Positions 29,990-52,224 of a DNA stretch of 64,000 bases are shown one piece after another. The stretch is from NCBI GenBank assembly GCA_946807835.1, contig OX327697.1, positions 16,192,001 through 16,256,000 of the forward strand. Reading direction: 5' to 3'. How positions within the stretch are numbered: position 1 is the stretch's first letter; each line of letters begins with the position of its first letter. This DNA is from Ailanthus altissimus. Lineage: Eukaryota > Streptophyta > Magnoliopsida > Sapindales > Simaroubaceae. Below the pieces are notes generated by a model. That model had not been told where the DNA came from. It was given only the letters and a program-made list of their open reading frames with translations, and searched no databases. Position numbers and translations under genes: made by a program.

Positions 29990-30020
29990 CGTTAGGGTCT
30001 AAATTTTGGCATTGGGGTGG
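29990..30020 (-). mobile_element. 3' tip of the old gypsy 5' LTR, cut off by the array
   Basis: Aligns with the low end of the LTR at 22553 (TTAGGGT...TTTGG...). It continues on the far side of the array at 52225. The array's target duplication GGTGG is at 30016-30020. Confidence 0.6.
30016..30020 (+). repeat. Left target-site duplication of the whole array
   Basis: GGTGG directly before the first LTR, matched by GGTGG at 52220-52224 directly after the fourth LTR. Confidence 0.88.
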
Positions 30021-31410
30021 TGATAAGGCGTAATTGTATAAACTATTTTATCTTCCTAACTTGATATTTGTTCAATTTATCTCAATAATTGGGCTATTTA
30101 TGCGTATTAATGTTGTTTTATAGGTTGAAGCATTATCGGAGCAAAAATACCGGAAAACGGACGCAAATCGGAGCATTAGAGATAAAAATACGAATGGGGG
30201 CACTGTTTGTTACAGTAACACTGTAGCTACAGTACACTGCTACAGTGCACTGTGGCAACAGTGCAGCGCCGCAGCGCTGGATTTCAGCGCCGCGGCGCCG
30301 ATTGCAGAAACTGAGCGCCGCAGCGCCAAATCGCAGCGCCGCGGCGCCGGGACCTGGGCAACAAGTTTTGACAGGTTCCTGAAAATCAGGAAACCCAAAA
30401 GTAACTCAAAATGCGCCCTAATTCCGTGCTCTTACCTATTTAATTGCTCAAAACTTACATTTTGGAAGAGGACTCCAGCTGGGACAGCAGCTGGAAACAC
30501 AAAGAAACACCTAACTTCTAAGTTTGAAGAAATCAAAGAGGAGGGAAGCAAGCTTCAACAACAAAGGCATTTGACAGGGATGTCTTCTTTTCTTTGATTC
30601 TTTACTTGTTGTAAGATGTTTAGTTTACATGTATTGATGGAATTAGCTTCAAGATTGTGTAGTTTAATGATGAGCTAATTTCGTTCATCTAGGATTACAT
30701 CCTTGAACTCATTATGTGATTGATTTTAGTTCTCTCTTTTATGGTATTAATTCAGCTTTTGATATATTCATTGTGCTTGTGCTTAATGCTATTTGATTAC
30801 TTGGCCAGTGGTTAAATTGATCTAGAAATGCTTAAATAAACTTGACAAAGGCATTTAGGTATTTAGTCTTAAGCATATTGATGCATGATCATAGTGTAGT
30901 ACACTTGAGTTTCATATGAGATAGACATATACTCATAAGGCATGTATGGCTCATAAAACTTGTGCTTAATGAATTTTGTTCAATTTATTTATCATAGACA
31001 TATAGATATTTGATTGGATGGAATAGATTCACTTGACCTGCAAAAGAGGCTTGTGATGTGTTGAGTGTTTTGGTCAATATATCAAGTTGAGAACCAATAA
31101 ACATCAAAGAGATTCTGCTGAATTTATTTGCATAATGAGGGATAGTTTGTAATCCTAGGATTTCTCATATTGAATATAATTTGTTGGTAATTTAGTTTAT
31201 CACTTAGCATAATTAAGTTGTTCTTTTACTTGAGTAGTTTAATCATCATACATTAAATCATTTTCTGGATAATAGTAGAAAGACACCATTTCGGTACTTA
31301 AACTAGAAAAGATAAATCATTCTCTGTGGGATCGACACTCTACTTATCATATATTACTTGTTGCGACAACGTGCACTTGCGCTAATTTGTGTTATAGAAA
31401 TCACACAACA
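30021..31410 (+). mobile_element. LTR 1 of the array
   Basis: Starts TGATAAGGCGTAATTG and ends ATCACACAACA, followed by the PBS. A cluster of ACAGT/ACTGT words lies at 30201-30264 and a GC-rich palindromic cassette at 30264-30351. A TATTTAAT near 30437 is a possible TATA region, followed by ATTTTGGAAGAGGACTCC. The end (TGTGGGATCGACACTCTACT...) is the part conserved with the LTR at 5458. Confidence 0.92.
30201..30351 (+). repeat. ACAGT-word and GC-palindrome cassette in LTR 1
   Basis: First come CACTGT, TACAGTAACACTGTAG, CTACAGTACACTG, CTACAGTGCACTGTGG and AACAGTGC. Then come four GC-rich motifs: CAGCGCCGCAGCGCTGG, CAGCGCCGCGGCGCCG, GAGCGCCGCAGCGCC, CAGCGCCGCGGCGCCGGG. GCGCCGCGGCGC is a perfect 12-base palindrome. 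The other LTRs carry the same cassette at 37137-37287, 44074-44224 and 51010-51160. Confidence 0.85.
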
Positions 31411-31416
31411 AGTTTT

Positions 31417-31434
31417 TGGCGCCGTTGCCGGGGA
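31417..31434 (+). other. Primer-binding site, unit 1 (tRNA-Asp)
   Basis: TGGCGCCGTTGCCGGGGA is a perfect 18-base complement to the 3' end of plant tRNA-Asp(GTC). It starts six bases after the LTR end. tRNA-Asp priming is common in Athila elements. Confidence 0.88.
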
Positions 31435-31524
31435 ATGAAAATTTTTTTTATTTTAATACTGATACAAATCTTTTCTCCTGTTAATTCAGATTTCTGTTTT
31501 TGTTTGTAGAAATTTCAGGTGTGT

Positions 31525-34371
31525 ATGAGACGTTCCAAGAACGTTGATCTAGCATACTTTGATCCTGAAATTGAGAGGACACTAAGAAGATTACGACGAG
31601 ACCAGAACCAAGTGACTAGCATGGAAGAGCAAAACCAGAATGTTTGTGCAGAGCCAAGAGCTTTAAGAGACTATGCAGTTCCTTGGGTGAATGGCATACA
31701 CTCGAGCATTCGCAGGCCAAATATCAATGCTAACAATTTTGAAATCAAGCCGGGGACTATTCGAATGCTTAAAGAATCAGTGCAGTTCAGCGGCTTCCCG
31801 AATGATGATCCCAACGAGCATATCACAAATTTCTTGGAAATTTGTGACACATTCAAATACAATGGCGTGTCAGATGATGCCATAAGACTCAGGTTGTTTC
31901 CATTCTCCTTAAGGGACAAAGCAAAAAGTTGGTTAATATCATCACCATCCGGTTCAATAACAACATGGGATGATTTGGCACAAAAGTTCTTAGCCAAGTT
32001 CTTCCCACCGGCCAAAACTGCAAAGATGCGTAATGATATTACCTCTTTTGTACAACATGAGTCAGAATCATTGTATGAATCATGGGAGAGATTTAAGGAT
32101 ATGCTGAGAAAGTGTCCACATCATGGAGTTCCCAAATGGTTGTTGGTGCAAACATTTTATAATGGATTGGTGGGACATTTAAGAATGATTGTAGATGCAG
32201 CAGCTGGAGGGGCGTTAATGAGCAAGTCCACGGATGTGGCATATGACTTGTTGGAAGAAATAGCCTTCAACAGCTACCAATGGCCATCAGAAATAGTGAA
32301 TCCAAGAAAAGTTGCTGGTGTGCATGAAATTGATGCACTCACTTCCTTGACAGCACAAGTTAGTTTGTTGGCTAAGAAGATGGATACACTTGGAGTCAAT
32401 GCAGTAAAAAGCCAACCACCAACTTGTGATTTTTGTGGAGATAATCACCAAAATGGTCTATGCATGGAGACAGCACAATATGTAGGGAGTTACAATCAGC
32501 AGCAGCATAATCCCAACTTGAATTTTTACAATCCAGGGTGGAGGAATCATCCAAATTTTTCTTGGAATGATAATAACCAAGGGCAATCCTCAAAATCCAT
32601 GAGTCCACCCAGATTTCAAATGCAGCAGCAGCAGCAACAATTTCAGCAAGAAAAGAAACCTGGTGTTGAGGAATTGTTAATTCAATACATAAGGCAAACT
32701 GACCAACTTTTGCAAAGCCAATCAGCATCTCTTCGCACCTTAGAAAACCAAGTTGGTCAATTAGCTTCTGCAATGAACAACCGTCCTCAAGGGTCGTTAC
32801 CGAGTAACACGGAAGTTAATCCAAAAGGTGACAAAGAGCAATGCAAATCAATAACGTTGAGAAGCGGTAAAGAATTGCAAAACATTGTGGGAAGACCTAA
32901 GTCATCAGCAAATGCAGAAAGTTCTGCAGATACAGAAAATTCTGCAGATGCAGCAAATGCAGAATATGCAGAAAGTTCTGCAGATGCAGAAAATTCTGCA
33001 GATGCAGCAAATGCAGAATATGCAGAAAATTCTGCAGATGCAGAAAATTCTGCAGATGCAGAAAATGCAGAAAATGCAGAAAATTCTGCAGATGCAGAAA
33101 GTGCAGAAAATGCAGAAAATTCTGCAGATGCAGAAAGTGCAGAAAATTCTGCAAAGGGGAATGAAAAACAAGAAGATGGTGCAGCAAAAGAAAAGGTTAT
33201 ACAGAAAGAGAAGGTGCAGCCTTATAGACCACCACCATTTCCTCAGCGACTACAGAAGCAAAAGAAAGAGAAGCAGTTTACAAAGTTTCTGGAAATTTTT
33301 AAGAAACTGCACATTAACATACCATTCGCAGATGCATTAGAGCAAATGCCTAGCTATGTTAAATTCATGAAGGACATTCTTTCAAGGAAAAAGAAGCTGG
33401 ACGAGTATGAAACTGTAGCGTTGACAGAAGAATGCAGTGCAATATTGCAGAAAAAATTGCCTCCAAAGCTCAAGGATCCAGGAAGTTTTACCATTCCTTG
33501 CACAATTGGAAACCGGTATTTTGGTAAAGCTTTATGTGATCTAGGGGCCAGCATAAATTTGATGCCTTTATCTATCTACAACCAGCTAGGATTGGGGGAA
33601 GCCAAGCCTACGAATGTCACTTTACAACTTGCAGATCGTTCACTCACATATCCTAAAGGTGTGATTGAAGATGTGTTAGTTAAGGTAGATAAATTTATAT
33701 TCCCAGCTGACTTCATTGTGTTGGATATGGAAGAGGATCTTGAAATTCCAATCATTTTGGGAAGACCTTTCTTAGCTACCGGTAGAACCTTGATTGATGT
33801 CCAAAAAGGAGAACTTACTATGAGAGTGCAAGATGAAGAGGTGACGTTTAATGTGTTCAAAGCCATGGAATTTCCCAAGGAAGCAGATGAATGTTACTGC
33901 ATCAGCATTATTGACAGAGAAATTCAAAGGATATTCAACAGCCATTATAGCCAAGACTCTCTAGAAAATGCAGTCAAGGGTTACCTTAATCTACAGATTT
34001 CCAAGGATTATTCCCATTGTTTCCAAATGGACATGGTAATTCCGGATGAAATACAATTACCTCAGAGGCTAAAAGTGATAGAAGCCATTCAACATCAAGG
34101 TCATAAAAAGGCATCATGGTACAGATTGATAACCAAGAAGAGGCAAAGTACTTTCACAAAGAAAACAGCGAAAATAGGCTATTGGAGTTCAATCTTCCAG
34201 TCTAAGATTAAAGTCTTTCTGGGAAGGCTCAAAGCAAAAAGGTCAGAGATGCCACTTCAAGATTTTCTTATGGAGTTGTGGAAGTCGAAGAAAAAGAATG
34301 TTAACACCCGAAGACATCGACTTAAGTTCCATAAGGGAGATGCTTCAGATATGCAGTTTGATCCTCATTGA
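31525..34371 (+). CDS. Gag-protease polyprotein, Athila type, unit 1
   Basis: An intact 948-residue frame. I start at the ATG at 31525 (MRRSKNVDLAYFDPE); the open frame extends two codons upstream without another ATG. Domains in order: a basic N-terminus; the retrotransposon Gag core (about 85-255, with DAIRLRLFPFSLRDKAKSWL and a TFYNGL motif); a zinc knuckle with Cys301, Cys304, His308, Cys313 (C-X2-C-X3-H-X4-C, one residue short of canonical); the Athila signature NPGWRNHPNFSW; a Gln-rich stretch; an A/E/N/S/D repeat linker (461-543); and an aspartic protease with DLGAS at 672-676 and an ILGRPFLATGRT block at about 744-755. The C-terminus is Lys/Arg-rich. Gag would form the cytoplasmic particle and the protease would cleave it. 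No reverse transcriptase or integrase follows the stop. Confidence 0.93.
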   Translation: MRRSKNVDLAYFDPEIERTLRRLRRDQNQVTSMEEQNQNVCAEPRALRDYAVPWVNGIHSSIRRPNINANNFEIKPGTIRMLKESVQFSGFPNDDPNEHITNFLEICDTFKYNGVSDDAIRLRLFPFSLRDKAKSWLISSPSGSITTWDDLAQKFLAKFFPPAKTAKMRNDITSFVQHESESLYESWERFKDMLRKCPHHGVPKWLLVQTFYNGLVGHLRMIVDAAAGGALMSKSTDVAYDLLEEIAFNSYQWPSEIVNPRKVAGVHEIDALTSLTAQVSLLAKKMDTLGVNAVKSQPPTCDFCGDNHQNGLCMETAQYVGSYNQQQHNPNLNFYNPGWRNHPNFSWNDNNQGQSSKSMSPPRFQMQQQQQQFQQEKKPGVEELLIQYIRQTDQLLQSQSASLRTLENQVGQLASAMNNRPQGSLPSNTEVNPKGDKEQCKSITLRSGKELQNIVGRPKSSANAESSADTENSADAANAEYAESSADAENSADAANAEYAENSADAENSADAENAENAENSADAESAENAENSADAESAENSAKGNEKQEDGAAKEKVIQKEKVQPYRPPPFPQRLQKQKKEKQFTKFLEIFKKLHINIPFADALEQMPSYVKFMKDILSRKKKLDEYETVALTEECSAILQKKLPPKLKDPGSFTIPCTIGNRYFGKALCDLGASINLMPLSIYNQLGLGEAKPTNVTLQLADRSLTYPKGVIEDVLVKVDKFIFPADFIVLDMEEDLEIPIILGRPFLATGRTLIDVQKGELTMRVQDEEVTFNVFKAMEFPKEADECYCISIIDREIQRIFNSHYSQDSLENAVKGYLNLQISKDYSHCFQMDMVIPDEIQLPQRLKVIEAIQHQGHKKASWYRLITKKRQSTFTKKTAKIGYWSSIFQSKIKVFLGRLKAKRSEMPLQDFLMELWKSKKKNVNTRRHRLKFHKGDASDMQFDPH
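32909..33153 (+). repeat. Coding minisatellite in gag-pro (unit 1)
   Basis: Repeats of GCAGAAAATTCTGCAGAT and shorter GCAGAAAAT units encode (AENSAD)-type repeats, residues 461-543, between the zinc knuckle and the protease. The same tract is at 39845-40089 and 46782-47026. It gives long open frames on the opposite strand that are only shadows. Confidence 0.88.
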
Positions 34372-35361
34372 GTCAAAAAGGATAACGTCTAGCCAGAGAC
34401 GAAAAATTAGGCGCTGTTTGGGAGGCAACCCAAGGTAAATATGTGTTGCATTAGTATTGGCATTTATTATTTTCAGTTTCTAAAAAAAAAAAAAAATAAA
34501 TAAATAAATAAATTTTTTTTTGCAAGGAACGAGCGCCGCGGCGCTCAAACTGAGCGCCGCAGCGCCACTTCCAGAGATGCAGCGCCGCAGCGCTGATTCC
34601 TAACGCCGCGGCGCTGCAGCGGGGATAGCAACAAAAGGGGCATTTGCCCAAATTTTTCCCCCTTTTCTCATGCTCTCTCTCTTGCTAACCCTAGACTCTC
34701 TCAACCCTCTCAACCTACCCCAATTCACACTCTCAAATCCCACCTTACCCATTAAATTTTCAGCTTAAAAACAACATCAAAACACACTCCAAACATCATT
34801 TCACACACTTCATCATCACAAATTCCATCAAATTGCATTTTCTACAACAAATTAACAAAGTTCTCCCAATCTCAAATTTCGGTGGATTAAACTCACAAGG
34901 TAAACAATCTTGTCTTTAATCTCTTATTTTACATTGATTCTTTCTTTATTCTACTTCCATTATGCAATTGTTGGATTAATTTGTGAGTAGTAAAATGAAA
35001 TCTTTGGGTTTAACCTTGAATTCTTGCATTGAGATTATGATGGAATTATGTTGAGATTTGTGTTGGAATTATATTGAGATTGTGTTGGATTTGTGTTGAG
35101 TTTATGTTGAAATTATGTTGAGATTTGTGTTGGAATTGTGTTGGCATTGAATTGGAATTATATTGAATTGTGTTGGAATTGTGTTGGCATTGAATTGGAA
35201 TTATGTTGGCATTATATTGGAATTGTGTTGGAATTGTGAAAACTTAATTCGTTATTCCATGAGTGTAGAAAGTTTTAGCCAATTTGATTGGAGTGTGGAC
35301 TTGTGACAATTAAGGAGATTGGTGGAGGGGCTTTAGTTGGCAAATTAGTGTTCTGAGCAAC

Positions 35362-35511
35362 ATGGCTTTGTTAGCGAAGATGAAGATGCAACAGCAACAA
35401 ATGATGACTAATGCCCGAAATCTATTTCAGGGAAGTATTTCTATGCTTTTTGTCTTATGTTTCTTTTTGTTTTGCCATGAGGACATGTCGGATAGTAAGT
35501 TTGGGGGATAG
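35362..35511 (+). other. 49-codon ORF with a hydrophobic segment, unit 1
   Basis: It starts MALLAKMKMQQQQMM and contains a hydrophobic stretch of about 12 residues (SMLFVLCFFLFC) before the stop in the first AAGTTTGGGGG motif. It occupies the place where Athila elements carry a third ORF. It may be a remnant or chance. The same ORF is at 42299-42448 and 49236-49385. Confidence 0.35.
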
Positions 35512-36941
35512 GGAAACACTTTCCCTTTTGTTATGCTTTTAGTTGTATTTATTCATTTGTTTTGTTTTTAATTGTCTTTTTAGTTGTTTGTTTTGCATAA
35601 TTTTTTTTGTTTTGTTTGTTTTCTTTCATTTTAGTGTTCAGTTGTGGGTTGGTTGAATGATTAGTAGTCAATGATATGAAATAGAAACATGATTTCAAAT
35701 GCTATGTTCTTTGGGAAACAATGAATGTTGTGATTGTTTACTTGGTAATCTAGGACAAGTTCAGCTTCACTTTGTGACCACTTGATATTTCGAGCACATA
35801 GTTAGAATTATTTAGTTTTATGCTTACTTAGAAGACTTTTATGCACTACAAGAATAAATATGGTCTCAAGAACACGCTAGAACTTGTTGGAGCATCACTC
35901 AAGGCGAAATCCTAGGGCATACATAATTAGGGATATGATTTTAGGCCATTTTTGGACCGATTGAGCCTTTCAAGCCAACCTATGTATAATTTTGACCGTA
36001 GTCACCCCCGTTGAGCCTAATTATCATTTTTTCTTGCTAACTATATCATTACCTTAGCCTTTACTTTTATTATCCTTCATAGTACCCATCACGCCATAAG
36101 TATAGCACTTCTTTTAAAGAGTTGTGTGAACTTTTATAAATGAAGGGGTGAATTAAATAAGAGCTTTGGGTTTGGTTATAAATGTTGGTTGTTCAAATAT
36201 GAAAAGCTTAAGTTTGGGGGTATAGTGACTTATATGTAAAAAAAAAAATAAAAAAAAAAATAAAAAAATAAATAAATAAAAAAAATAAATAAAAAAAAAT
36301 AAATAAAAAAGAAAAAAAAGAAAGAAACAAAAAGAAAAATTGAGTTTGCTATACCCCTAGCTTAAATGAAAAGAAAAGAAGAGCAACAAAATAGCTAGGG
36401 AATCAAAAGAAATAAGTTTGGGGGAAATTGGGTGGAAAACAATGGTTGGGTTTGAGTAACCTCAAGAGGAATGTGTGTTTATGGTGTAAGTTGAGCCAAA
36501 ATCGATCCATTTTATCATACCCTCACCCTAGCCATGCATTACAAGCTAACTAAAGTCCTATTTGATCCTTGATTATGTGTGTGTCTACATTAGTGGAGAG
36601 TGATGCGAAAAACAAGCATATGGAGTGTTAAATAAAAGCAAAATTCTCATAGAGACCATTTCATTATCTTATGTGCATAAACTAATCCGAGCGCATGCTA
36701 CTAATGATTTTAGCTATTCACACACACACCAAGTAGGTCACTTGTGGGTATGAATAAGTGTTGGATTAACATGTTGAACGGTTAAGATGTTTAGAATTTC
36801 CTTGAGAATAGTAGTCATGAGAAATTTTTGAGATAAATTACTAATCGTTTGCCAACCCAATGTTTTATATCTTTTTATTATTTGTTGTCATTTTTTTTGT
36901 GTTGTCCGTGTGCTCTCTTACTCGAGGACGAGCAAATATTT

Positions 36942-36956
36942 AAGTTTGGGGGTATT
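36942..36956 (+). other. Polypurine tract, unit 1
   Basis: AAGTTTGGGGGTATT directly precedes LTR 2 (36957). The G-run and position fit the plus-strand priming site. Equivalent sites precede LTR 3 (43879-43893) and LTR 4 (50815-50829). Confidence 0.75.
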
Positions 36957-38346
36957 TGATAAGGCGTAATTGTATAAACTATTTTATCTTCCTAACTTGA
37001 TATTTGTTCAATTTATCTCAATAATTGGGCTATTTATGCGTATTAATGTTGTTTTATAGGTTGAAGCATTATCGGAGCAAAAATACCGGAAAACGGACGC
37101 AAATCGGAGCATTAGAGATAAAAATACGAATGGGGGCACTGTTTGTTACAGTAACACTGTAGCTACAGTACACTGCTACAGTGCACTGTGGCAACAGTGC
37201 AGCGCCGCAGCGCTGGATTTCAGCGCCGCGGCGCCGATTGCAGAAACTGAGCGCCGCAGCGCCAAATCGCAGCGCCGCGGCGCCGGGACCTGGGCAACAA
37301 GTTTTGACAGGTTCCTGAAAATCAGGAAACCCAAAAGTAACTCAAAATGCGCCCTAATTCCGTGCTCTTACCTATTTAATTGCTCAAAACTTACATTTTG
37401 GAAGAGGACTCCAGCTGGGACAGCAGCTGGAAACACAAAGAAACACCTAACTTCTAAGTTTGAAGAAATCAAAGAGGAGGGAAGCAAGCTTCAACAACAA
37501 AGGCATTTGACAGGGATGTCTTCTTTTCTTTGATTCTTTACTTGTTGTAAGATGTTTAGTTTACATGTATTGATGGAATTAGCTTCAAGATTGTGTAGTT
37601 TAATGATGAGCTAATTTCGTTCATCTAGGATTACATCCTTGAACTCATTATGTGATTGATTTTAGTTCTCTCTTTTATGGTATTAATTCAGCTTTTGATA
37701 TATTCATTGTGCTTGTGCTTAATGCTATTTGATTACTTGGCCAGTGGTTAAATTGATCTAGAAATGCTTAAATAAACTTGACAAAGGCATTTAGGTATTT
37801 AGTCTTAAGCATATTGATGCATGATCATAGTGTAGTACACTTGAGTTTCATATGAGATAGACATATACTCATAAGGCATGTATGGCTCATAAAACTTGTG
37901 CTTAATGAATTTTGTTCAATTTATTTATCATAGACATATAGATATTTGATTGGATGGAATAGATTCACTTGACCTGCAAAAGAGGCTTGTGATGTGTTGA
38001 GTGTTTTGGTCAATATATCAAGTTGAGAACCAATAAACATCAAAGAGATTCTGCTGAATTTATTTGCATAATGAGGGATAGTTTGTAATCCTAGGATTTC
38101 TCATATTGAATATAATTTGTTGGTAATTTAGTTTATCACTTAGCATAATTAAGTTGTTCTTTTACTTGAGTAGTTTAATCATCATACATTAAATCATTTT
38201 CTGGATAATAGTAGAAAGACACCATTTCGGTACTTAAACTAGAAAAGATAAATCATTCTCTGTGGGATCGACACTCTACTTATCATATATTACTTGTTGC
38301 GACAACGTGCACTTGCGCTAATTTGTGTTATAGAAATCACACAACA
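36957..38346 (+). mobile_element. LTR 2 of the array (shared by units 1 and 2)
   Basis: 1390 bp, starts TGATAAGGCG and ends CACACAACA. I saw no base differing from LTR 1 in the parts compared. It serves as 3' LTR of unit 1 and 5' LTR of unit 2, with no target duplication between. Confidence 0.92.
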
Positions 38347-38352
38347 AGTTTT

Positions 38353-38370
38353 TGGCGCCGTTGCCGGGGA
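38353..38370 (+). other. Primer-binding site, unit 2
   Basis: TGGCGCCGTTGCCGGGGA, identical to unit 1. Confidence 0.88.
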
Positions 38371-38460
38371 ATGAAAATTTTTTTTATTTTAATACTGATA
38401 CAAATCTTTTCTCCTGTTAATTCAGATTTCTGTTTTTGTTTGTAGAAATTTCAGGTGTGT

Positions 38461-41307: not shown

Positions 41308-43893
41308 GTCAAAAAGGATAACGTCTAGCCAGAGACGAAAAATTAGGCGCTGTTTGGGAGGCAACCCAAGGTAAATATGTGTTGCATTAGTATTGGCATT
41401 TATTATTTTCAGTTTCTAAAAAAAAAAAATAAATAAATAAATAAATAAATTTTTTTTTGCAAGGAACGAGCGCCGCGGCGCTCAAACTGAGCGCCGCAGC
41501 GCCACTTCCAGAGATGCAGCGCCGCAGCGCTGATTCCTAACGCCGCGGCGCTGCAGCGGGGATAGCAACAAAAGGGGCATTTGCCCAAATTTTTCCCCCT
41601 TTTCTCATGCTCTCTCTCTTGCTAACCCTAGACTCTCTCAACCCTCTCAACCTACCCCAATTCACACTCTCAAATCCCACCTTACCCATTAAATTTTCAG
41701 CTTAAAAACAACATCAAAACACACTCCAAACATCATTTCACACACTTCATCATCACAAATTCCATCAAATTGCATTTTCTACAACAAATTAACAAAGTTC
41801 TCCCAATCTCAAATTTCGGTGGATTAAACTCACAAGGTAAACAATCTTGTCTTTAATCTCTTATTTTACATTGATTCTTTCTTTATTCTACTTCCATTAT
41901 GCAATTGTTGGATTAATTTGTGAGTAGTAAAATGAAATCTTTGGGTTTAACCTTGAATTCTTGCATTGAGATTATGATGGAATTATGTTGAGATTTGTGT
42001 TGGAATTATATTGAGATTGTGTTGGATTTGTGTTGAGTTTATGTTGAAATTATGTTGAGATTTGTGTTGGAATTGTGTTGGCATTGAATTGGAATTATAT
42101 TGAATTGTGTTGGAATTGTGTTGGCATTGAATTGGAATTATGTTGGCATTATATTGGAATTGTGTTGGAATTGTGAAAACTTAATTCGTTATTCCATGAG
42201 TGTAGAAAGTTTTAGCCAATTTGATTGGAGTGTGGACTTGTGACAATTAAGGAGATTGGTGGAGGGGCTTTAGTTGGCAAATTAGTGTTCTGAGCAACAT
42301 GGCTTTGTTAGCGAAGATGAAGATGCAACAGCAACAAATGATGACTAATGCCCGAAATCTATTTCAGGGAAGTATTTCTATGCTTTTTGTCTTATGTTTC
42401 TTTTTGTTTTGCCATGAGGACATGTCGGATAGTAAGTTTGGGGGATAGGGAAACACTTTCCCTTTTGTTATGCTTTTAGTTGTATTTATTCATTTGTTTT
42501 GTTTTTAATTGTCTTTTTAGTTGTTTGTTTTGCATAATTTTTTTTGTTTTGTTTGTTTTCTTTCATTTTAGTGTTCAGTTGTGGGTTGGTTGAATGATTA
42601 GTAGTCAATGATATGAAATAGAAACATGATTTCAAATGCTATGTTCTTTGGGAAACAATGAATGTTGTGATTGTTTACTTGGTAATCTAGGACAAGTTCA
42701 GCTTCACTTTGTGACCACTTGATATTTCGAGCACATAGTTAGAATTATTTAGTTTTATGCTTACTTAGAAGACTTTTATGCACTACAAGAATAAATATGG
42801 TCTCAAGAACACGCTAGAACTTGTTGGAGCATCACTCAAGGCGAAATCCTAGGGCATACATAATTAGGGATATGATTTTAGGCCATTTTTGGACCGATTG
42901 AGCCTTTCAAGCCAACCTATGTATAATTTTGACCGTAGTCACCCCCGTTGAGCCTAATTATCATTTTTTCTTGCTAACTATATCATTACCTTAGCCTTTA
43001 CTTTTATTATCCTTCATAGTACCCATCACGCCATAAGTATAGCACTTCTTTTAAAGAGTTGTGTGAACTTTTATAAATGAAGGGGTGAATTAAATAAGAG
43101 CTTTGGGTTTGGTTATAAATGTTGGTTGTTCAAATATGAAAAGCTTAAGTTTGGGGGTATAGTGACTTATATGTAAAAAAAAAAATAAAAAAAAAAATAA
43201 AAAAAAAAAATAAATAAAAAAATAAATAAAAATAAATAAATAAAAAAAAAAAAAAAGAAAGAAACAAAAAGAAAAATTGAGTTTGCTATACCCCTAGCTT
43301 AAATGAAAAGAAAAGAAGAGCAACAAAATAGCTAGGGAATCAAAAGAAATAAGTTTGGGGGAAATTGGGTGGAAAACAATGGTTGGGTTTGAGTAACCTC
43401 AAGAGGAATGTGTGTTTATGGTGTAAGTTGAGCCAAAATCGATCCATTTTATCATACCCTCACCCTAGCCATGCATTACAAGCTAACTAAAGTCCTATTT
43501 GATCCTTGATTATGTGTGTGTCTACATTAGTGGAGAGTGATGCGAAAAACAAGCATATGGAGTGTTAAATAAAAGCAAAATTCTCATAGAGACCATTTCA
43601 TTATCTTATGTGCATAAACTAATCCGAGCGCATGCTACTAATGATTTTAGCTATTCACACACACACCAAGTAGGTCACTTGTGGGTATGAATAAGTGTTG
43701 GATTAACATGTTGAACGGTTAAGATGTTTAGAATTTCCTTGAGAATAGTAGTCATGAGAAATTTTTGAGATAAATTACTAATCGTTTGCCAACCCAATGT
43801 TTTATATCTTTTTATTATTTGTTGTCATTTTTTTTGTGTTGTCCGTGTGCTCTCTTACTCGAGGACGAGCAAATATTTAAGTTTGGGGGTATT
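41308..43893 (+). other. 3' internal non-coding region, unit 2
   Basis: Same contents as unit 1: GC cassette 41468-41559, TTGGAATTGTG minisatellite 41962-42175, 49-codon ORF 42299-42448. It differs in its simple-sequence tracts: A12(TAAA)5 instead of A15(TAAA)4, and a rearranged A/TAAA tract around 43175-43260. Confidence 0.85.
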
Positions 43894-45283
43894 TGATAAG
43901 GCGTAATTGTATAAACTATTTTATCTTCCTAACTTGATATTTGTTCAATTTATCTCAATAATTGGGCTATTTATGCGTATTAATGTTGTTTTATAGGTTG
44001 AAGCATTATCGGAGCAAAAATACCGGAAAACGGACGCAAATCGGAGCATTAGAGATAAAAATACGAATGGGGGCACTGTTTGTTACAGTAACACTGTAGC
44101 TACAGTACACTGCTACAGTGCACTGTGGCAACAGTGCAGCGCCGCAGCGCTGGATTTCAGCGCCGCGGCGCCGATTGCAGAAACTGAGCGCCGCAGCGCC
44201 AAATCGCAGCGCCGCGGCGCCGGGACCTGGGCAACAAGTTTTGACAGGTTCCTGAAAATCAGGAAACCCAAAAGTAACTCAAAATGCGCCCTAATTCCGT
44301 GCTCTTACCTATTTAATTGCTCAAAACTTACATTTTGGAAGAGGACTCCAGCTGGGACAGCAGCTGGAAACACAAAGAAACACCTAACTTCTAAGTTTGA
44401 AGAAATCAAAGAGGAGGGAAGCAAGCTTCAACAACAAAGGCATTTGACAGGGATGTCTTCTTTTCTTTGATTCTTTACTTGTTGTAAGATGTTTAGTTTA
44501 CATGTATTGATGGAATTAGCTTCAAGATTGTGTAGTTTAATGATGAGCTAATTTCGTTCATCTAGGATTACATCCTTGAACTCATTATGTGATTGATTTT
44601 AGTTCTCTCTTTTATGGTATTAATTCAGCTTTTGATATATTCATTGTGCTTGTGCTTAATGCTATTTGATTACTTGGCCAGTGGTTAAATTGATCTAGAA
44701 ATGCTTAAATAAACTTGACAAAGGCATTTAGGTATTTAGTCTTAAGCATATTGATGCATGATCATAGTGTAGTACACTTGAGTTTCATATGAGATAGACA
44801 TATACTCATAAGGCATGTATGGCTCATAAAACTTGTGCTTAATGAATTTTGTTCAATTTATTTATCATAGACATATAGATATTTGATTGGATGGAATAGA
44901 TTCACTTGACCTGCAAAAGAGGCTTGTGATGTGTTGAGTGTTTTGGTCAATATATCAAGTTGAGAACCAATAAACATCAAAGAGATTCTGCTGAATTTAT
45001 TTGCATAATGAGGGATAGTTTGTAATCCTAGGATTTCTCATATTGAATATAATTTGTTGGTAATTTAGTTTATCACTTAGCATAATTAAGTTGTTCTTTT
45101 ACTTGAGTAGTTTAATCATCATACATTAAATCATTTTCTGGATAATAGTAGAAAGACACCATTTCGGTACTTAAACTAGAAAAGATAAATCATTCTCTGT
45201 GGGATCGACACTCTACTTATCATATATTACTTGTTGCGACAACGTGCACTTGCGCTAATTTGTGTTATAGAAATCACACAACA
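43894..45283 (+). mobile_element. LTR 3 of the array (shared by units 2 and 3)
   Basis: 1390 bp with the same ends and cassette as LTR 1 and LTR 2. Confidence 0.92.
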
Positions 45284-45289
45284 AGTTTT

Positions 45290-45307
45290 TGGCGCCGTTG
45301 CCGGGGA
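45290..45307 (+). other. Primer-binding site, unit 3
   Basis: TGGCGCCGTTGCCGGGGA, identical to unit 1. Confidence 0.88.
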
Positions 45308-45397
45308 ATGAAAATTTTTTTTATTTTAATACTGATACAAATCTTTTCTCCTGTTAATTCAGATTTCTGTTTTTGTTTGTAGAAATTTCAGGTGTGT

Positions 45398-48244
45398 ATG
45401 AGACGTTCCAAGAACGTTGATCTAGCATACTTTGATCCTGAAATTGAGAGGACACTAAGAAGATTACGACGAGACCAGAACCAAGTGACTAGCATGGAAG
45501 AGCAAAACCAGAATGTTTGTGCAGAGCCAAGAGCTTTAAGAGACTATGCAGTTCCTTGGGTGAATGGCATACACTCGAGCATTCGCAGGCCAAATATCAA
45601 TGCTAACAATTTTGAAATCAAGCCGGGGACTATTCGAATGCTTAAAGAATCAGTGCAGTTCAGCGGCTTCCCGAATGATGATCCCAACGAGCATATCACA
45701 AATTTCTTGGAAATTTGTGACACATTCAAATACAATGGCGTGTCAGATGATGCCATAAGACTCAGGTTGTTTCCATTCTCCTTAAGGGACAAAGCAAAAA
45801 GTTGGTTAATATCATCACCATCCGGTTCAATAACAACATGGGATGATTTGGCACAAAAGTTCTTAGCCAAGTTCTTCCCACCGGCCAAAACTGCAAAGAT
45901 GCGTAATGATATTACCTCTTTTGTACAACATGAGTCAGAATCATTGTATGAATCATGGGAGAGATTTAAGGATATGCTGAGAAAGTGTCCACATCATGGA
46001 GTTCCCAAATGGTTGTTGGTGCAAACATTTTATAATGGATTGGTGGGACATTTAAGAATGATTGTAGATGCAGCAGCTGGAGGGGCGTTAATGAGCAAGT
46101 CCACGGATGTGGCATATGACTTGTTGGAAGAAATAGCCTTCAACAGCTACCAATGGCCATCAGAAATAGTGAATCCAAGAAAAGTTGCTGGTGTGCATGA
46201 AATTGATGCACTCACTTCCTTGACAGCACAAGTTAGTTTGTTGGCTAAGAAGATGGATACACTTGGAGTCAATGCAGTAAAAAGCCAACCACCAACTTGT
46301 GATTTTTGTGGAGATAATCACCAAAATGGTCTATGCATGGAGACAGCACAATATGTAGGGAGTTACAATCAGCAGCAGCATAATCCCAACTTGAATTTTT
46401 ACAATCCAGGGTGGAGGAATCATCCAAATTTTTCTTGGAATGATAATAACCAAGGGCAATCCTCAAAATCCATGAGTCCACCCAGATTTCAAATGCAGCA
46501 GCAGCAGCAACAATTTCAGCAAGAAAAGAAACCTGGTGTTGAGGAATTGTTAATTCAATACATAAGGCAAACTGACCAACTTTTGCAAAGCCAATCAGCA
46601 TCTCTTCGCACCTTAGAAAACCAAGTTGGTCAATTAGCTTCTGCAATGAACAACCGTCCTCAAGGGTCGTTACCGAGTAACACGGAAGTTAATCCAAAAG
46701 GTGACAAAGAGCAATGCAAATCAATAACGTTGAGAAGCGGTAAAGAATTGCAAAACATTGTGGGAAGACCTAAGTCATCAGCAAATGCAGAAAGTTCTGC
46801 AGATACAGAAAATTCTGCAGATGCAGCAAATGCAGAATATGCAGAAAGTTCTGCAGATGCAGAAAATTCTGCAGATGCAGCAAATGCAGAATATGCAGAA
46901 AATTCTGCAGATGCAGAAAATTCTGCAGATGCAGAAAATGCAGAAAATGCAGAAAATTCTGCAGATGCAGAAAGTGCAGAAAATGCAGAAAATTCTGCAG
47001 ATGCAGAAAGTGCAGAAAATTCTGCAAAGGGGAATGAAAAACAAGAAGATGGTGCAGCAAAAGAAAAGGTTATACAGAAAGAGAAGGTGCAGCCTTATAG
47101 ACCACCACCATTTCCTCAGCGACTACAGAAGCAAAAGAAAGAGAAGCAGTTTACAAAGTTTCTGGAAATTTTTAAGAAACTGCACATTAACATACCATTC
47201 GCAGATGCATTAGAGCAAATGCCTAGCTATGTTAAATTCATGAAGGACATTCTTTCAAGGAAAAAGAAGCTGGACGAGTATGAAACTGTAGCGTTGACAG
47301 AAGAATGCAGTGCAATATTGCAGAAAAAATTGCCTCCAAAGCTCAAGGATCCAGGAAGTTTTACCATTCCTTGCACAATTGGAAACCGGTATTTTGGTAA
47401 AGCTTTATGTGATCTAGGGGCCAGCATAAATTTGATGCCTTTATCTATCTACAACCAGCTAGGATTGGGGGAAGCCAAGCCTACGAATGTCACTTTACAA
47501 CTTGCAGATCGTTCACTCACATATCCTAAAGGTGTGATTGAAGATGTGTTAGTTAAGGTAGATAAATTTATATTCCCAGCTGACTTCATTGTGTTGGATA
47601 TGGAAGAGGATCTTGAAATTCCAATCATTTTGGGAAGACCTTTCTTAGCTACCGGTAGAACCTTGATTGATGTCCAAAAAGGAGAACTTACTATGAGAGT
47701 GCAAGATGAAGAGGTGACGTTTAATGTGTTCAAAGCCATGGAATTTCCCAAGGAAGCAGATGAATGTTACTGCATCAGCATTATTGACAGAGAAATTCAA
47801 AGGATATTCAACAGCCATTATAGCCAAGACTCTCTAGAAAATGCAGTCAAGGGTTACCTTAATCTACAGATTTCCAAGGATTATTCCCATTGTTTCCAAA
47901 TGGACATGGTAATTCCGGATGAAATACAATTACCTCAGAGGCTAAAAGTGATAGAAGCCATTCAACATCAAGGTCATAAAAAGGCATCATGGTACAGATT
48001 GATAACCAAGAAGAGGCAAAGTACTTTCACAAAGAAAACAGCGAAAATAGGCTATTGGAGTTCAATCTTCCAGTCTAAGATTAAAGTCTTTCTGGGAAGG
48101 CTCAAAGCAAAAAGGTCAGAGATGCCACTTCAAGATTTTCTTATGGAGTTGTGGAAGTCGAAGAAAAAGAATGTTAACACCCGAAGACATCGACTTAAGT
48201 TCCATAAGGGAGATGCTTCAGATATGCAGTTTGATCCTCATTGA
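45398..48244 (+). CDS. Gag-protease polyprotein, Athila type, unit 3
   Basis: The third intact copy, 948 residues, with a translation identical to units 1 and 2. Start ATG 45398. The same domain order applies: Gag core, shortened zinc knuckle, NPGWRNHPNFSW signature, repeat linker, DLGAS protease, basic tail. Confidence 0.93.
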   Translation: MRRSKNVDLAYFDPEIERTLRRLRRDQNQVTSMEEQNQNVCAEPRALRDYAVPWVNGIHSSIRRPNINANNFEIKPGTIRMLKESVQFSGFPNDDPNEHITNFLEICDTFKYNGVSDDAIRLRLFPFSLRDKAKSWLISSPSGSITTWDDLAQKFLAKFFPPAKTAKMRNDITSFVQHESESLYESWERFKDMLRKCPHHGVPKWLLVQTFYNGLVGHLRMIVDAAAGGALMSKSTDVAYDLLEEIAFNSYQWPSEIVNPRKVAGVHEIDALTSLTAQVSLLAKKMDTLGVNAVKSQPPTCDFCGDNHQNGLCMETAQYVGSYNQQQHNPNLNFYNPGWRNHPNFSWNDNNQGQSSKSMSPPRFQMQQQQQQFQQEKKPGVEELLIQYIRQTDQLLQSQSASLRTLENQVGQLASAMNNRPQGSLPSNTEVNPKGDKEQCKSITLRSGKELQNIVGRPKSSANAESSADTENSADAANAEYAESSADAENSADAANAEYAENSADAENSADAENAENAENSADAESAENAENSADAESAENSAKGNEKQEDGAAKEKVIQKEKVQPYRPPPFPQRLQKQKKEKQFTKFLEIFKKLHINIPFADALEQMPSYVKFMKDILSRKKKLDEYETVALTEECSAILQKKLPPKLKDPGSFTIPCTIGNRYFGKALCDLGASINLMPLSIYNQLGLGEAKPTNVTLQLADRSLTYPKGVIEDVLVKVDKFIFPADFIVLDMEEDLEIPIILGRPFLATGRTLIDVQKGELTMRVQDEEVTFNVFKAMEFPKEADECYCISIIDREIQRIFNSHYSQDSLENAVKGYLNLQISKDYSHCFQMDMVIPDEIQLPQRLKVIEAIQHQGHKKASWYRLITKKRQSTFTKKTAKIGYWSSIFQSKIKVFLGRLKAKRSEMPLQDFLMELWKSKKKNVNTRRHRLKFHKGDASDMQFDPH

Positions 48245-50161
48245 GTCAAAAAGGATAACGTCTAGCCAGAGACGAAAAATTAGGCGCTGTTTGGGAGGCA
48301 ACCCAAGGTAAATATGTGTTGCATTAGTATTGGCATTTATTATTTTCAGTTTCTAAAAAAAAAAAATAAATAAATAAATAAATAAATTTTTTTTTGCAAG
48401 GAACGAGCGCCGCGGCGCTCAAACTGAGCGCCGCAGCGCCACTTCCAGAGATGCAGCGCCGCAGCGCTGATTCCTAACGCCGCGGCGCTGCAGCGGGGAT
48501 AGCAACAAAAGGGGCATTTGCCCAAATTTTTCCCCCTTTTCTCATGCTCTCTCTCTTGCTAACCCTAGACTCTCTCAACCCTCTCAACCTACCCCAATTC
48601 ACACTCTCAAATCCCACCTTACCCATTAAATTTTCAGCTTAAAAACAACATCAAAACACACTCCAAACATCATTTCACACACTTCATCATCACAAATTCC
48701 ATCAAATTGCATTTTCTACAACAAATTAACAAAGTTCTCCCAATCTCAAATTTCGGTGGATTAAACTCACAAGGTAAACAATCTTGTCTTTAATCTCTTA
48801 TTTTACATTGATTCTTTCTTTATTCTACTTCCATTATGCAATTGTTGGATTAATTTGTGAGTAGTAAAATGAAATCTTTGGGTTTAACCTTGAATTCTTG
48901 CATTGAGATTATGATGGAATTATGTTGAGATTTGTGTTGGAATTATATTGAGATTGTGTTGGATTTGTGTTGAGTTTATGTTGAAATTATGTTGAGATTT
49001 GTGTTGGAATTGTGTTGGCATTGAATTGGAATTATATTGAATTGTGTTGGAATTGTGTTGGCATTGAATTGGAATTATGTTGGCATTATATTGGAATTGT
49101 GTTGGAATTGTGAAAACTTAATTCGTTATTCCATGAGTGTAGAAAGTTTTAGCCAATTTGATTGGAGTGTGGACTTGTGACAATTAAGGAGATTGGTGGA
49201 GGGGCTTTAGTTGGCAAATTAGTGTTCTGAGCAACATGGCTTTGTTAGCGAAGATGAAGATGCAACAGCAACAAATGATGACTAATGCCCGAAATCTATT
49301 TCAGGGAAGTATTTCTATGCTTTTTGTCTTATGTTTCTTTTTGTTTTGCCATGAGGACATGTCGGATAGTAAGTTTGGGGGATAGGGAAACACTTTCCCT
49401 TTTGTTATGCTTTTAGTTGTATTTATTCATTTGTTTTGTTTTTAATTGTCTTTTTAGTTGTTTGTTTTGCATAATTTTTTTTGTTTTGTTTGTTTTCTTT
49501 CATTTTAGTGTTCAGTTGTGGGTTGGTTGAATGATTAGTAGTCAATGATATGAAATAGAAACATGATTTCAAATGCTATGTTCTTTGGGAAACAATGAAT
49601 GTTGTGATTGTTTACTTGGTAATCTAGGACAAGTTCAGCTTCACTTTGTGACCACTTGATATTTCGAGCACATAGTTAGAATTATTTAGTTTTATGCTTA
49701 CTTAGAAGACTTTTATGCACTACAAGAATAAATATGGTCTCAAGAACACGCTAGAACTTGTTGGAGCATCACTCAAGGCGAAATCCTAGGGCATACATAA
49801 TTAGGGATATGATTTTAGGCCATTTTTGGACCGATTGAGCCTTTCAAGCCAACCTATGTATAATTTTGACCGTAGTCACCCCCGTTGAGCCTAATTATCA
49901 TTTTTTCTTGCTAACTATATCATTACCTTAGCCTTTACTTTTATTATCCTTCATAGTACCCATCACGCCATAAGTATAGCACTTCTTTTAAAGAGTTGTG
50001 TGAACTTTTATAAATGAAGGGGTGAATTAAATAAGAGCTTTGGGTTTGGTTATAAATGTTGGTTGTTCAAATATGAAAAGCTTAAGTTTGGGGGTATAGT
50101 GACTTATATGTAAAAAAAAAAATAAAAAAAAAAATAAAAAAAAAATAAATAAAAAAAATAA

Positions 50162-50194
<33 letters not shown>

Positions 50195-50829
50195 AAGAAA
50201 CAAAAAGAAAAATTGAGTTTGCTATACCCCTAGCTTAAATGAAAAGAAAAGAAGAGCAACAAAATAGCTAGGGAATCAAAAGAAATAAGTTTGGGGGAAA
50301 TTGGGTGGAAAACAATGGTTGGGTTTGAGTAACCTCAAGAGGAATGTGTGTTTATGGTGTAAGTTGAGCCAAAATCGATCCATTTTATCATACCCTCACC
50401 CTAGCCATGCATTACAAGCTAACTAAAGTCCTATTTGATCCTTGATTATGTGTGTGTCTACATTAGTGGAGAGTGATGCGAAAAACAAGCATATGGAGTG
50501 TTAAATAAAAGCAAAATTCTCATAGAGACCATTTCATTATCTTATGTGCATAAACTAATCCGAGCGCATGCTACTAATGATTTTAGCTATTCACACACAC
50601 ACCAAGTAGGTCACTTGTGGGTATGAATAAGTGTTGGATTAACATGTTGAACGGTTAAGATGTTTAGAATTTCCTTGAGAATAGTAGTCATGAGAAATTT
50701 TTGAGATAAATTACTAATCGTTTGCCAACCCAATGTTTTATATCTTTTTATTATTTGTTGTCATTTTTTTTGTGTTGTCCGTGTGCTCTCTTACTCGAGG
50801 ACGAGCAAATATTTAAGTTTGGGGGTATT
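48245..50829 (+). other. 3' internal non-coding region, unit 3
   Basis: Contents as in unit 1: GC cassette 48405-48496, minisatellite 48899-49112, 49-codon ORF 49236-49385. The first tract is A12(TAAA)5, as in unit 2. The second tract (about 50112-50195) ends in a long uninterrupted A-run not seen in units 1 and 2. Confidence 0.85.
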
Positions 50830-52219
50830 TGATAAGGCGTAATTGTATAAACTATTTTATCTTCCTAACTTGATATTTGTTCAATTTATCTCAATAATTG
50901 GGCTATTTATGCGTATTAATGTTGTTTTATAGGTTGAAGCATTATCGGAGCAAAAATACCGGAAAACGGACGCAAATCGGAGCATTAGAGATAAAAATAC
51001 GAATGGGGGCACTGTTTGTTACAGTAACACTGTAGCTACAGTACACTGCTACAGTGCACTGTGGCAACAGTGCAGCGCCGCAGCGCTGGATTTCAGCGCC
51101 GCGGCGCCGATTGCAGAAACTGAGCGCCGCAGCGCCAAATCGCAGCGCCGCGGCGCCGGGACCTGGGCAACAAGTTTTGACAGGTTCCTGAAAATCAGGA
51201 AACCCAAAAGTAACTCAAAATGCGCCCTAATTCCGTGCTCTTACCTATTTAATTGCTCAAAACTTACATTTTGGAAGAGGACTCCAGCTGGGACAGCAGC
51301 TGGAAACACAAAGAAACACCTAACTTCTAAGTTTGAAGAAATCAAAGAGGAGGGAAGCAAGCTTCAACAACAAAGGCATTTGACAGGGATGTCTTCTTTT
51401 CTTTGATTCTTTACTTGTTGTAAGATGTTTAGTTTACATGTATTGATGGAATTAGCTTCAAGATTGTGTAGTTTAATGATGAGCTAATTTCGTTCATCTA
51501 GGATTACATCCTTGAACTCATTATGTGATTGATTTTAGTTCTCTCTTTTATGGTATTAATTCAGCTTTTGATATATTCATTGTGCTTGTGCTTAATGCTA
51601 TTTGATTACTTGGCCAGTGGTTAAATTGATCTAGAAATGCTTAAATAAACTTGACAAAGGCATTTAGGTATTTAGTCTTAAGCATATTGATGCATGATCA
51701 TAGTGTAGTACACTTGAGTTTCATATGAGATAGACATATACTCATAAGGCATGTATGGCTCATAAAACTTGTGCTTAATGAATTTTGTTCAATTTATTTA
51801 TCATAGACATATAGATATTTGATTGGATGGAATAGATTCACTTGACCTGCAAAAGAGGCTTGTGATGTGTTGAGTGTTTTGGTCAATATATCAAGTTGAG
51901 AACCAATAAACATCAAAGAGATTCTGCTGAATTTATTTGCATAATGAGGGATAGTTTGTAATCCTAGGATTTCTCATATTGAATATAATTTGTTGGTAAT
52001 TTAGTTTATCACTTAGCATAATTAAGTTGTTCTTTTACTTGAGTAGTTTAATCATCATACATTAAATCATTTTCTGGATAATAGTAGAAAGACACCATTT
52101 CGGTACTTAAACTAGAAAAGATAAATCATTCTCTGTGGGATCGACACTCTACTTATCATATATTACTTGTTGCGACAACGTGCACTTGCGCTAATTTGTG
52201 TTATAGAAATCACACAACA
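50830..52219 (+). mobile_element. LTR 4 of the array
   Basis: 1390 bp, starts TGATAAGGCG and ends CACACAACA. Instead of a PBS it is followed by GGTGG and the interrupted gypsy LTR, which marks the right end of the array. Confidence 0.92.
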
Positions 52220-52224
52220 GGTGG
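52220..52224 (+). repeat. Right target-site duplication of the whole array
   Basis: GGTGG, identical to 30016-30020. Confidence 0.88.

Follow-up and report, generated by a model that had tools for sequence, protein, structure and literature searches.

A three-unit tandem LTR retrotransposon array in Ailanthus altissimus and its probable expansion by unequal exchange

A tandem array of a long terminal repeat (LTR) retrotransposon, 22.2 kb in length, was identified in a 64-kb stretch of the Ailanthus altissimus genome (contig OX327697.1, C15:16192001-16256000, in an assembly of 939 Mb in 37 contigs), to which we refer as the window. Three full units of an Athila-like element encoding gag and a protease-like region follow one another, with neighbouring units sharing the LTR between them and one target site duplication (TSD) enclosing them all. 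Probably, the array originated from one insertion that was expanded in place from one to three units by at least two unequal exchanges between LTRs. Evidence comes from the array itself, from other members of the family, and in particular from one older sister array with a mosaic internal LTR.

Architecture of the array

Four LTRs of 1,390 bp each, starting at positions 30021, 36957, 43894 and 50830, are base-for-base identical and alternate head to tail with bodies of 5,546, 5,547 and 5,546 bp (units 1, 2 and 3, respectively). An LTR is present at both ends of the array, while the internal LTRs are common to neighbouring units. The sole TSD, GGTGG at 30016-30020 and 52220-52224, encloses the full array; neither inner TSDs nor extra bases were found at the two internal LTRs. 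Both of these LTRs have the polypurine tract (PPT) AAGTTTGGGGGTATT directly on their left and the primer binding site (PBS) AGTTTTTGGCGCC... directly on their right, from which it follows that neighbouring units truly share an LTR. The window contains no N bases, and the length and identity of the repeats exclude chance. A previous sequence-only reading of this DNA had proposed four 1390-bp LTRs and three bodies in head-to-tail order with shared LTRs, surrounded by a single GGTGG duplication. Our coordinates and alignments agree with this arrangement: the duplication was found at both outer ends and nowhere between units, and base-by-base alignment of all LTRs and bodies found the former identical and the latter near-identical. 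The features are as follows (positions in the window, strand, description):

30016..30020, no strand, target site duplication GGTGG, left copy
30021..31410, +, LTR 1 (TG...CA), 1390 bp
31411..36956, +, unit 1 body, 5546 bp, beginning with PBS AGTTTTTGGCGCCGTTGCCGGGGA and ending with PPT AAGTTTGGGGGTATT
31510..34371, +, unit 1 open frame (953 codons between stops) with gag PF03732 and, behind it, protease-like PF13650
38446-41307 and 45383-48244, +, copies of the open frame in units 2 and 3
34482..34513, +, A/T-rich tract A, one T longer in units 2 and 3 than in unit 1
36238..36340, +, A-rich tract B, containing the remaining differences between units
36957..38346, +, LTR 2, common to units 1 and 2, with PPT on the left and PBS on the right
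38347..43893, +, unit 2 body, 5547 bp
43894..45283, +, LTR 3, common to units 2 and 3
45284..50829, +, unit 3 body, 5546 bp
50830..52219, +, LTR 4
52220..52224, no strand, target site duplication GGTGG, right copy

The bodies differ from each other in 6 (units 1 and 2), 5 (units 1 and 3) and 6 (units 2 and 3) alignment columns, all of which fall in two A/T-rich tracts near 34493 and at 36261-36311 that together comprise 135 bp of the ~5.5 kb body. Outside the tracts, 0 differences were present in 21,794 bases. Substitution rates used for dating are 1.3e-8 and 7e-9 per site and year; with the former, the 95% bound places the common origin of the units at no more than ~10,600 years ago, and with the latter the same bound is 19,700 years. 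Relatives gave no reliable alignment in the A-rich tracts. Just before tract B, at ~36210-36223 and at the corresponding positions of units 2 and 3, the PPT-like string AAGTTTGGGGGTAT occurs a second time, the true PPT following ~730 bp downstream.

Sister arrays and solo LTRs of the family

The junction between LTR and PBS occurred 275 times in the genome (up to 2 mismatches). Among the 100 places listed, seven loci had a same-strand neighbour within 8 kb, compared with ~0.04 expected by chance. Five of these seven were verified as arrays and two were dropped: C11:15734468/15736318 represents one copy inside another, with 54 LTR substitutions, and at C6:20560262/20565906 the internal LTR is truncated and the fetched stretch contains no third one. 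One further array (C3:12.79 in the list below) came from another search, in which 40 of 5,795 candidates were scored and three of the arrays found later did not appear; the number of arrays is therefore a lower bound. In total, at least six arrays were verified in the family including that in the window, each inside one matching 5-bp duplication and two with deletions. Three full units were present only in the window array. The sister arrays are:

C6:17550490-17565638 (C6:17.55), TSD GCCAT
C16:4306824-4321875 (C16:4.31), TSD AGATC
C3:15889862-15904792 (C3:15.89), TSD CTCAT at both ends
C3:12792561-12802261 (C3:12.79), TSD ATGAT, first unit truncated
C12:10205831-10215614 (C12:10.2), TSD ATGAT, second body only 120 bp

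Within arrays, units differed over their first 2,000 body positions by 0 (C6:17.55), 1 (C16:4.31) and 1 (C3:15.89) substitutions, whereas 17-29 substitutions were counted in 25 comparisons between arrays (i.e. 0-0.05% within these three arrays and 0.86-1.55% between arrays). In this comparison the window and C12:10.2 were represented by unit 1 alone and C3:12.79 was left out; the 1.19-kb body tails shared by the units of C3:12.79 are the same, the single apparent difference being due to where the compared slice ends. The small number of differences within arrays as opposed to between them indicates that each array derived all its units from one molecule and not from different copies. The LTRs are identical in C12:10.2 and in C3:12.79 (the first LTR of the latter over its remaining 196 bases), and those of C6:17.55 show no substitutions and some gaps. 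In C16:4.31 the outer LTRs are identical, and 2 substitutions (near 177-188) and 4 gaps are private to the internal LTR. Of the second body of C12:10.2, the PBS end and the final 97 bp, which include the PPT, were retained. A genome search allowing up to 2 mismatches located the deletion junction at this one place and nowhere else, and a free short element was consequently rejected as the source of this shortened unit.

The array C3:15.89 differs in having diverged outer LTRs, with 18 substitutions pairwise and 21 sites in the joint alignment. At 16 of 16 sites on the left (133-743) its internal LTR matches the 3' and not the 5' LTR, and at 5 of 5 sites on the right (1033-1338) the 5' and not the 3' LTR; when labels are shuffled, the chance of this order is 1 in 20,349. 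Private to the internal LTR are one base and one inserted base, both located at a deletion of the 3' LTR. These sites were also compared with five further family LTRs. Among the left sites, nine changes were confined to the 5' LTR and five were common to the internal and 3' LTRs; among the right sites, three were confined to the 3' LTR and one was common to the internal and 5' LTRs; three of all 21 sites were ambiguous. As the derived base was present in none of the five other LTRs at 18 of 21 sites, the changes look post-insertional. Over the 5,405 and 5,404 bp compared, one substitution and one homopolymer base separate the two bodies. With 1 substitution per ~5.4 kb of body against 18-21 per ~1.36 kb of LTR, the bodies are younger than the divergence of the outer LTRs, from which an insertion age of ~0.5-0.6 million years is obtained at the 1.3e-8 rate.

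Different routes to a tandem predict different patterns here. Unequal exchange would give a 5' LTR, a body, an LTR with 3' sequence on its left and 5' sequence on its right, a second body and a 3' LTR, the bodies being younger than the divergence of the LTRs. If two different complementary DNAs (cDNAs) were joined via their LTRs, the opposite mosaic and different bodies would be expected, and insertion of a finished concatemer predicts three independently diverging LTRs. The mosaic internal LTR and the young bodies between old outer LTRs thus favour exchange in place, and at C3:15.89 it most likely happened long after insertion.

LTRs without a body were also surveyed. The genome search gave 2,824 candidates, of which 40, all near full length, were scored; four of them belong to the window array and the 36 located elsewhere were all fetched. 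The figures that follow refer to these scored loci. An LTR without body but with a perfect 5-bp TSD was found at 21 of the 36, and three had neither body nor perfect TSD. The remaining 12 are ends of eight other elements, and none of the 36 is an internal LTR. With so many body-less LTRs inside perfect TSDs, exchange between LTRs looks frequent in this family. The closest of the other LTRs scored differs from the window LTR by 7 bases and one gap. In seven LTR pairs of single copies we counted 0, 1, 0, 1, 2, 0 and 1 substitutions (two further pairs could not be used, owing to a broken 5' LTR in one and an inverted LTR in the other). Single copies being equally young, the zero divergence of the window LTRs is uninformative, and LTR identity was discarded as dating support for integration of a concatemer. 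Two loci deserve separate mention: i) at C3:21596717-21599451, one of the 21, an LTR with its own GAAAG duplication is apparently inserted in another LTR of the same family, and ii) at C6:24700877 onward, a 5' LTR and body sequence are followed by an LTR in inverted orientation.

Origin of the window array

According to the model which we consider probable, one non-autonomous Athila-like gag-protease element would have inserted once, giving rise to the GGTGG duplication. Misaligned LTRs of sister chromatids or homologues would then have exchanged unequally at least twice, leading from one unit to three in a process reciprocal to the formation of solo LTRs. A single insertion appears well supported by the one TSD, the shared LTRs and the identity of the units. 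Exchange, rather than a ready-made concatemer, we infer for the second step because the same family in the same genome contains numerous solo LTRs as well as one locus whose mosaic can be read. The sequence-only reading had left a choice between an insertion expanded by exchange and a concatemer of extrachromosomal DNA integrated once; its single insertion held up, and the choice, which cannot be made in the window, is tipped towards exchange by C3:15.89.

A concatemer made outside the chromosome (from rolling or recombined one-LTR circles, or from a tandem transcript of a one-LTR circle) and integrated once as three units would explain the single TSD and the identical LTRs and units of the window equally well, the family's single copies are very young as well, and this route was kept open for plant tandems (PMC11899658). 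Nevertheless, we regard it as unlikely: it leaves the mosaic LTR and the young bodies between old LTRs at C3:15.89 unexplained, it is required by none of the six arrays examined, and no free short element available for joining was found, the C12:10.2 junction being unique at up to 2 mismatches. Far less credible is integrase-independent homologous insertion, in which cDNA of other family copies recombines into an LTR of a resident element. It was described for Tf1 and proposed for plants (PMC12786077), and it would likewise keep one TSD. However, cDNA of another copy should bring ~1-5% differences into the bodies, and outside the tracts no difference was seen between the window units. The contrast between low divergence within three other arrays and higher divergence between arrays, as well as the distance to the closest other LTR among those scored, point in the same direction, and only cDNA derived from that very element would be compatible with this mechanism.

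An assembly artefact, in which the assembler passed repeatedly through an LTR loop and only one or two units exist at the true locus, would be compatible with the complete identity of the window LTRs and with an array longer than many reads, and such a loop also predicts an internal LTR of 3' sequence on the left and 5' sequence on the right. We consider it improbable, somewhat more so than the extrachromosomal concatemer, as the A-rich tracts differ among the three window units, two sister arrays carry a deletion in one unit only and others have private unit differences. In rice, a two-unit tandem was confirmed by four spanning reads (PMC11899658).

Several observations weigh against expansion by exchange. 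The four LTRs of the window are identical, so that the mosaic test cannot be applied and the mechanism is unreadable from the window alone. Attempts to order its units by the A-rich tracts (pairwise 6, 5 and 6) gave no clear tree or order of duplication. Four of the five sister arrays (C3:12.79, C12:10.2, C6:17.55 and C16:4.31) are uninformative on mechanism and the informative array is one locus only. Private changes in the internal LTR of C16:4.31 are not predicted by exchange and must be later changes. Finally, an assembly-graph loop would give the same mosaic at C3:15.89; private differences between the units there speak against exact duplication by software, although they are not proof.

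On balance, we lean towards a wider proposal, namely that LTRs of old arrays record how the arrays were formed and that at least one array here arose by unequal exchange inside an insertion about half a million years old. If true, tandems and solo LTRs would be two outcomes of one exchange process still acting on old insertions. One genome offers young arrays in which the mechanism is invisible, one old and readable array, and many solo LTRs of the same family. As the mosaic test needs assembled sequence only, it could be used on any well-assembled plant genome.

The element and its relation to known tandem elements

In the long open frame of the body, gag (PF03732) scored 77.4 bits, and an aspartyl protease-like region matched PF13650 at 23.6 bits, just under the 24.3 cut-off. 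A protein search gave 1,204 matches at E <= 0.001. Among the 120 matches listed, all with a named source were plant proteins, several also carried reverse transcriptase, RNase H and integrase domains, and the local identities listed were 40-75%, in keeping with a gag and protease of Athila type. When seven of these 120 polyproteins were compared with the body by tblastn, neither reverse transcriptase nor integrase was detected, as the matches covered gag and protease only and extended to about body position 2,600 at most; against the PDB, the protein had no match at E 0.01. Since no reverse transcriptase or integrase was detectable, the element is presumably non-autonomous and would have to borrow both. 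The PBS TGGCGCCGTTGCCGGGGA, present after LTRs 1, 2 and 3, is presumably complementary to tRNA-Asp. From PBS and gag we take the element to belong to the Athila group of Ty3/Gypsy, a lineage label named by no search result. TR-GAG elements are similar in that gag is kept, with reverse transcriptase and integrase not detected here. However, they are short (under ~4 kb), and the assignment was dropped as one body flanked by two LTRs would measure 8,326 bp. Cassandra TRIM elements are much smaller too.

The gag region contains a minisatellite of 18/54 bp (32908-33136, same place in units 2 and 3), which encodes a repeat of Ala-Asp-Ala-Glu-Asn-Ser type and leaves the frame open. All four Rfam matches in the window at the gathering threshold were to snoR71 (RF00097), each antisense to retrotransposon gag coding sequence:

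2077-2183, +, snoR71 match
32023-32129, -, snoR71 match
38959-39065, -, snoR71 match
45896-46002, -, snoR71 match

The snoR71 model thus seems to detect gag of such retrotransposons, and RF00097 might itself represent a piece of a retrotransposon. Remains of older retrotransposons near the array include a gag fragment (PF03732, 2151-2702, -) and a Copia-type reverse transcriptase fragment (PF07727, 21125-21589, +).

The window array is a new example of already documented tandem LTR insertions, which generate copy-number variation in plants. Plants commonly contain such tandems: elements with shared internal LTRs are frequent and polymorphic in rice and also occur in Arabidopsis, almond and cotton; Athila is enriched among tandems of the latter three species, a Gypsy bias exists in rice and Arabidopsis, and 10 of 28 clear rice tandems have perfect 5-nt TSDs (PMC11899658). 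The earlier claim that tandem products are reported rarely is therefore not supported, with at least six in this family alone. Whether tandems arise by exchange or are inserted as such was left undecided by Morales-Diaz et al. 2025 (PMC11899658), and a genome-wide mosaic test would decide this question if our proposal is true. The terms mosaic and chimer are absent from the main text of that paper, and our literature search, limited to open-licence papers, found no test of internal LTRs for mosaicism. Nothing about tandem units was found in passages on circular DNA in PMC12273906.

TLI1, TLI2 and others (PMC11899658) resemble the window array in their alternating LTRs and bodies, shared internal LTRs, single short TSD and high identity. 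The two loci treated in detail there have two units, whereas the window array has three full ones, encoding gag and protease with no reverse transcriptase or integrase detected. In another known system, the same arrangement of internal LTRs was put down to unequal recombination. Cassandra TRIM arrays (PMC7215508) are likewise tandems of non-autonomous LTR elements, in which unequal crossing-over may alter the number of copies, but these elements lack gag, pol and env. Outside plants, the tandem HERV-K (HML-2) provirus at 7p22.1 (PMC11807958) has three LTRs around two internal regions. It differs in being a human endogenous retrovirus of two units, and between people it alternates with a single-provirus allele.

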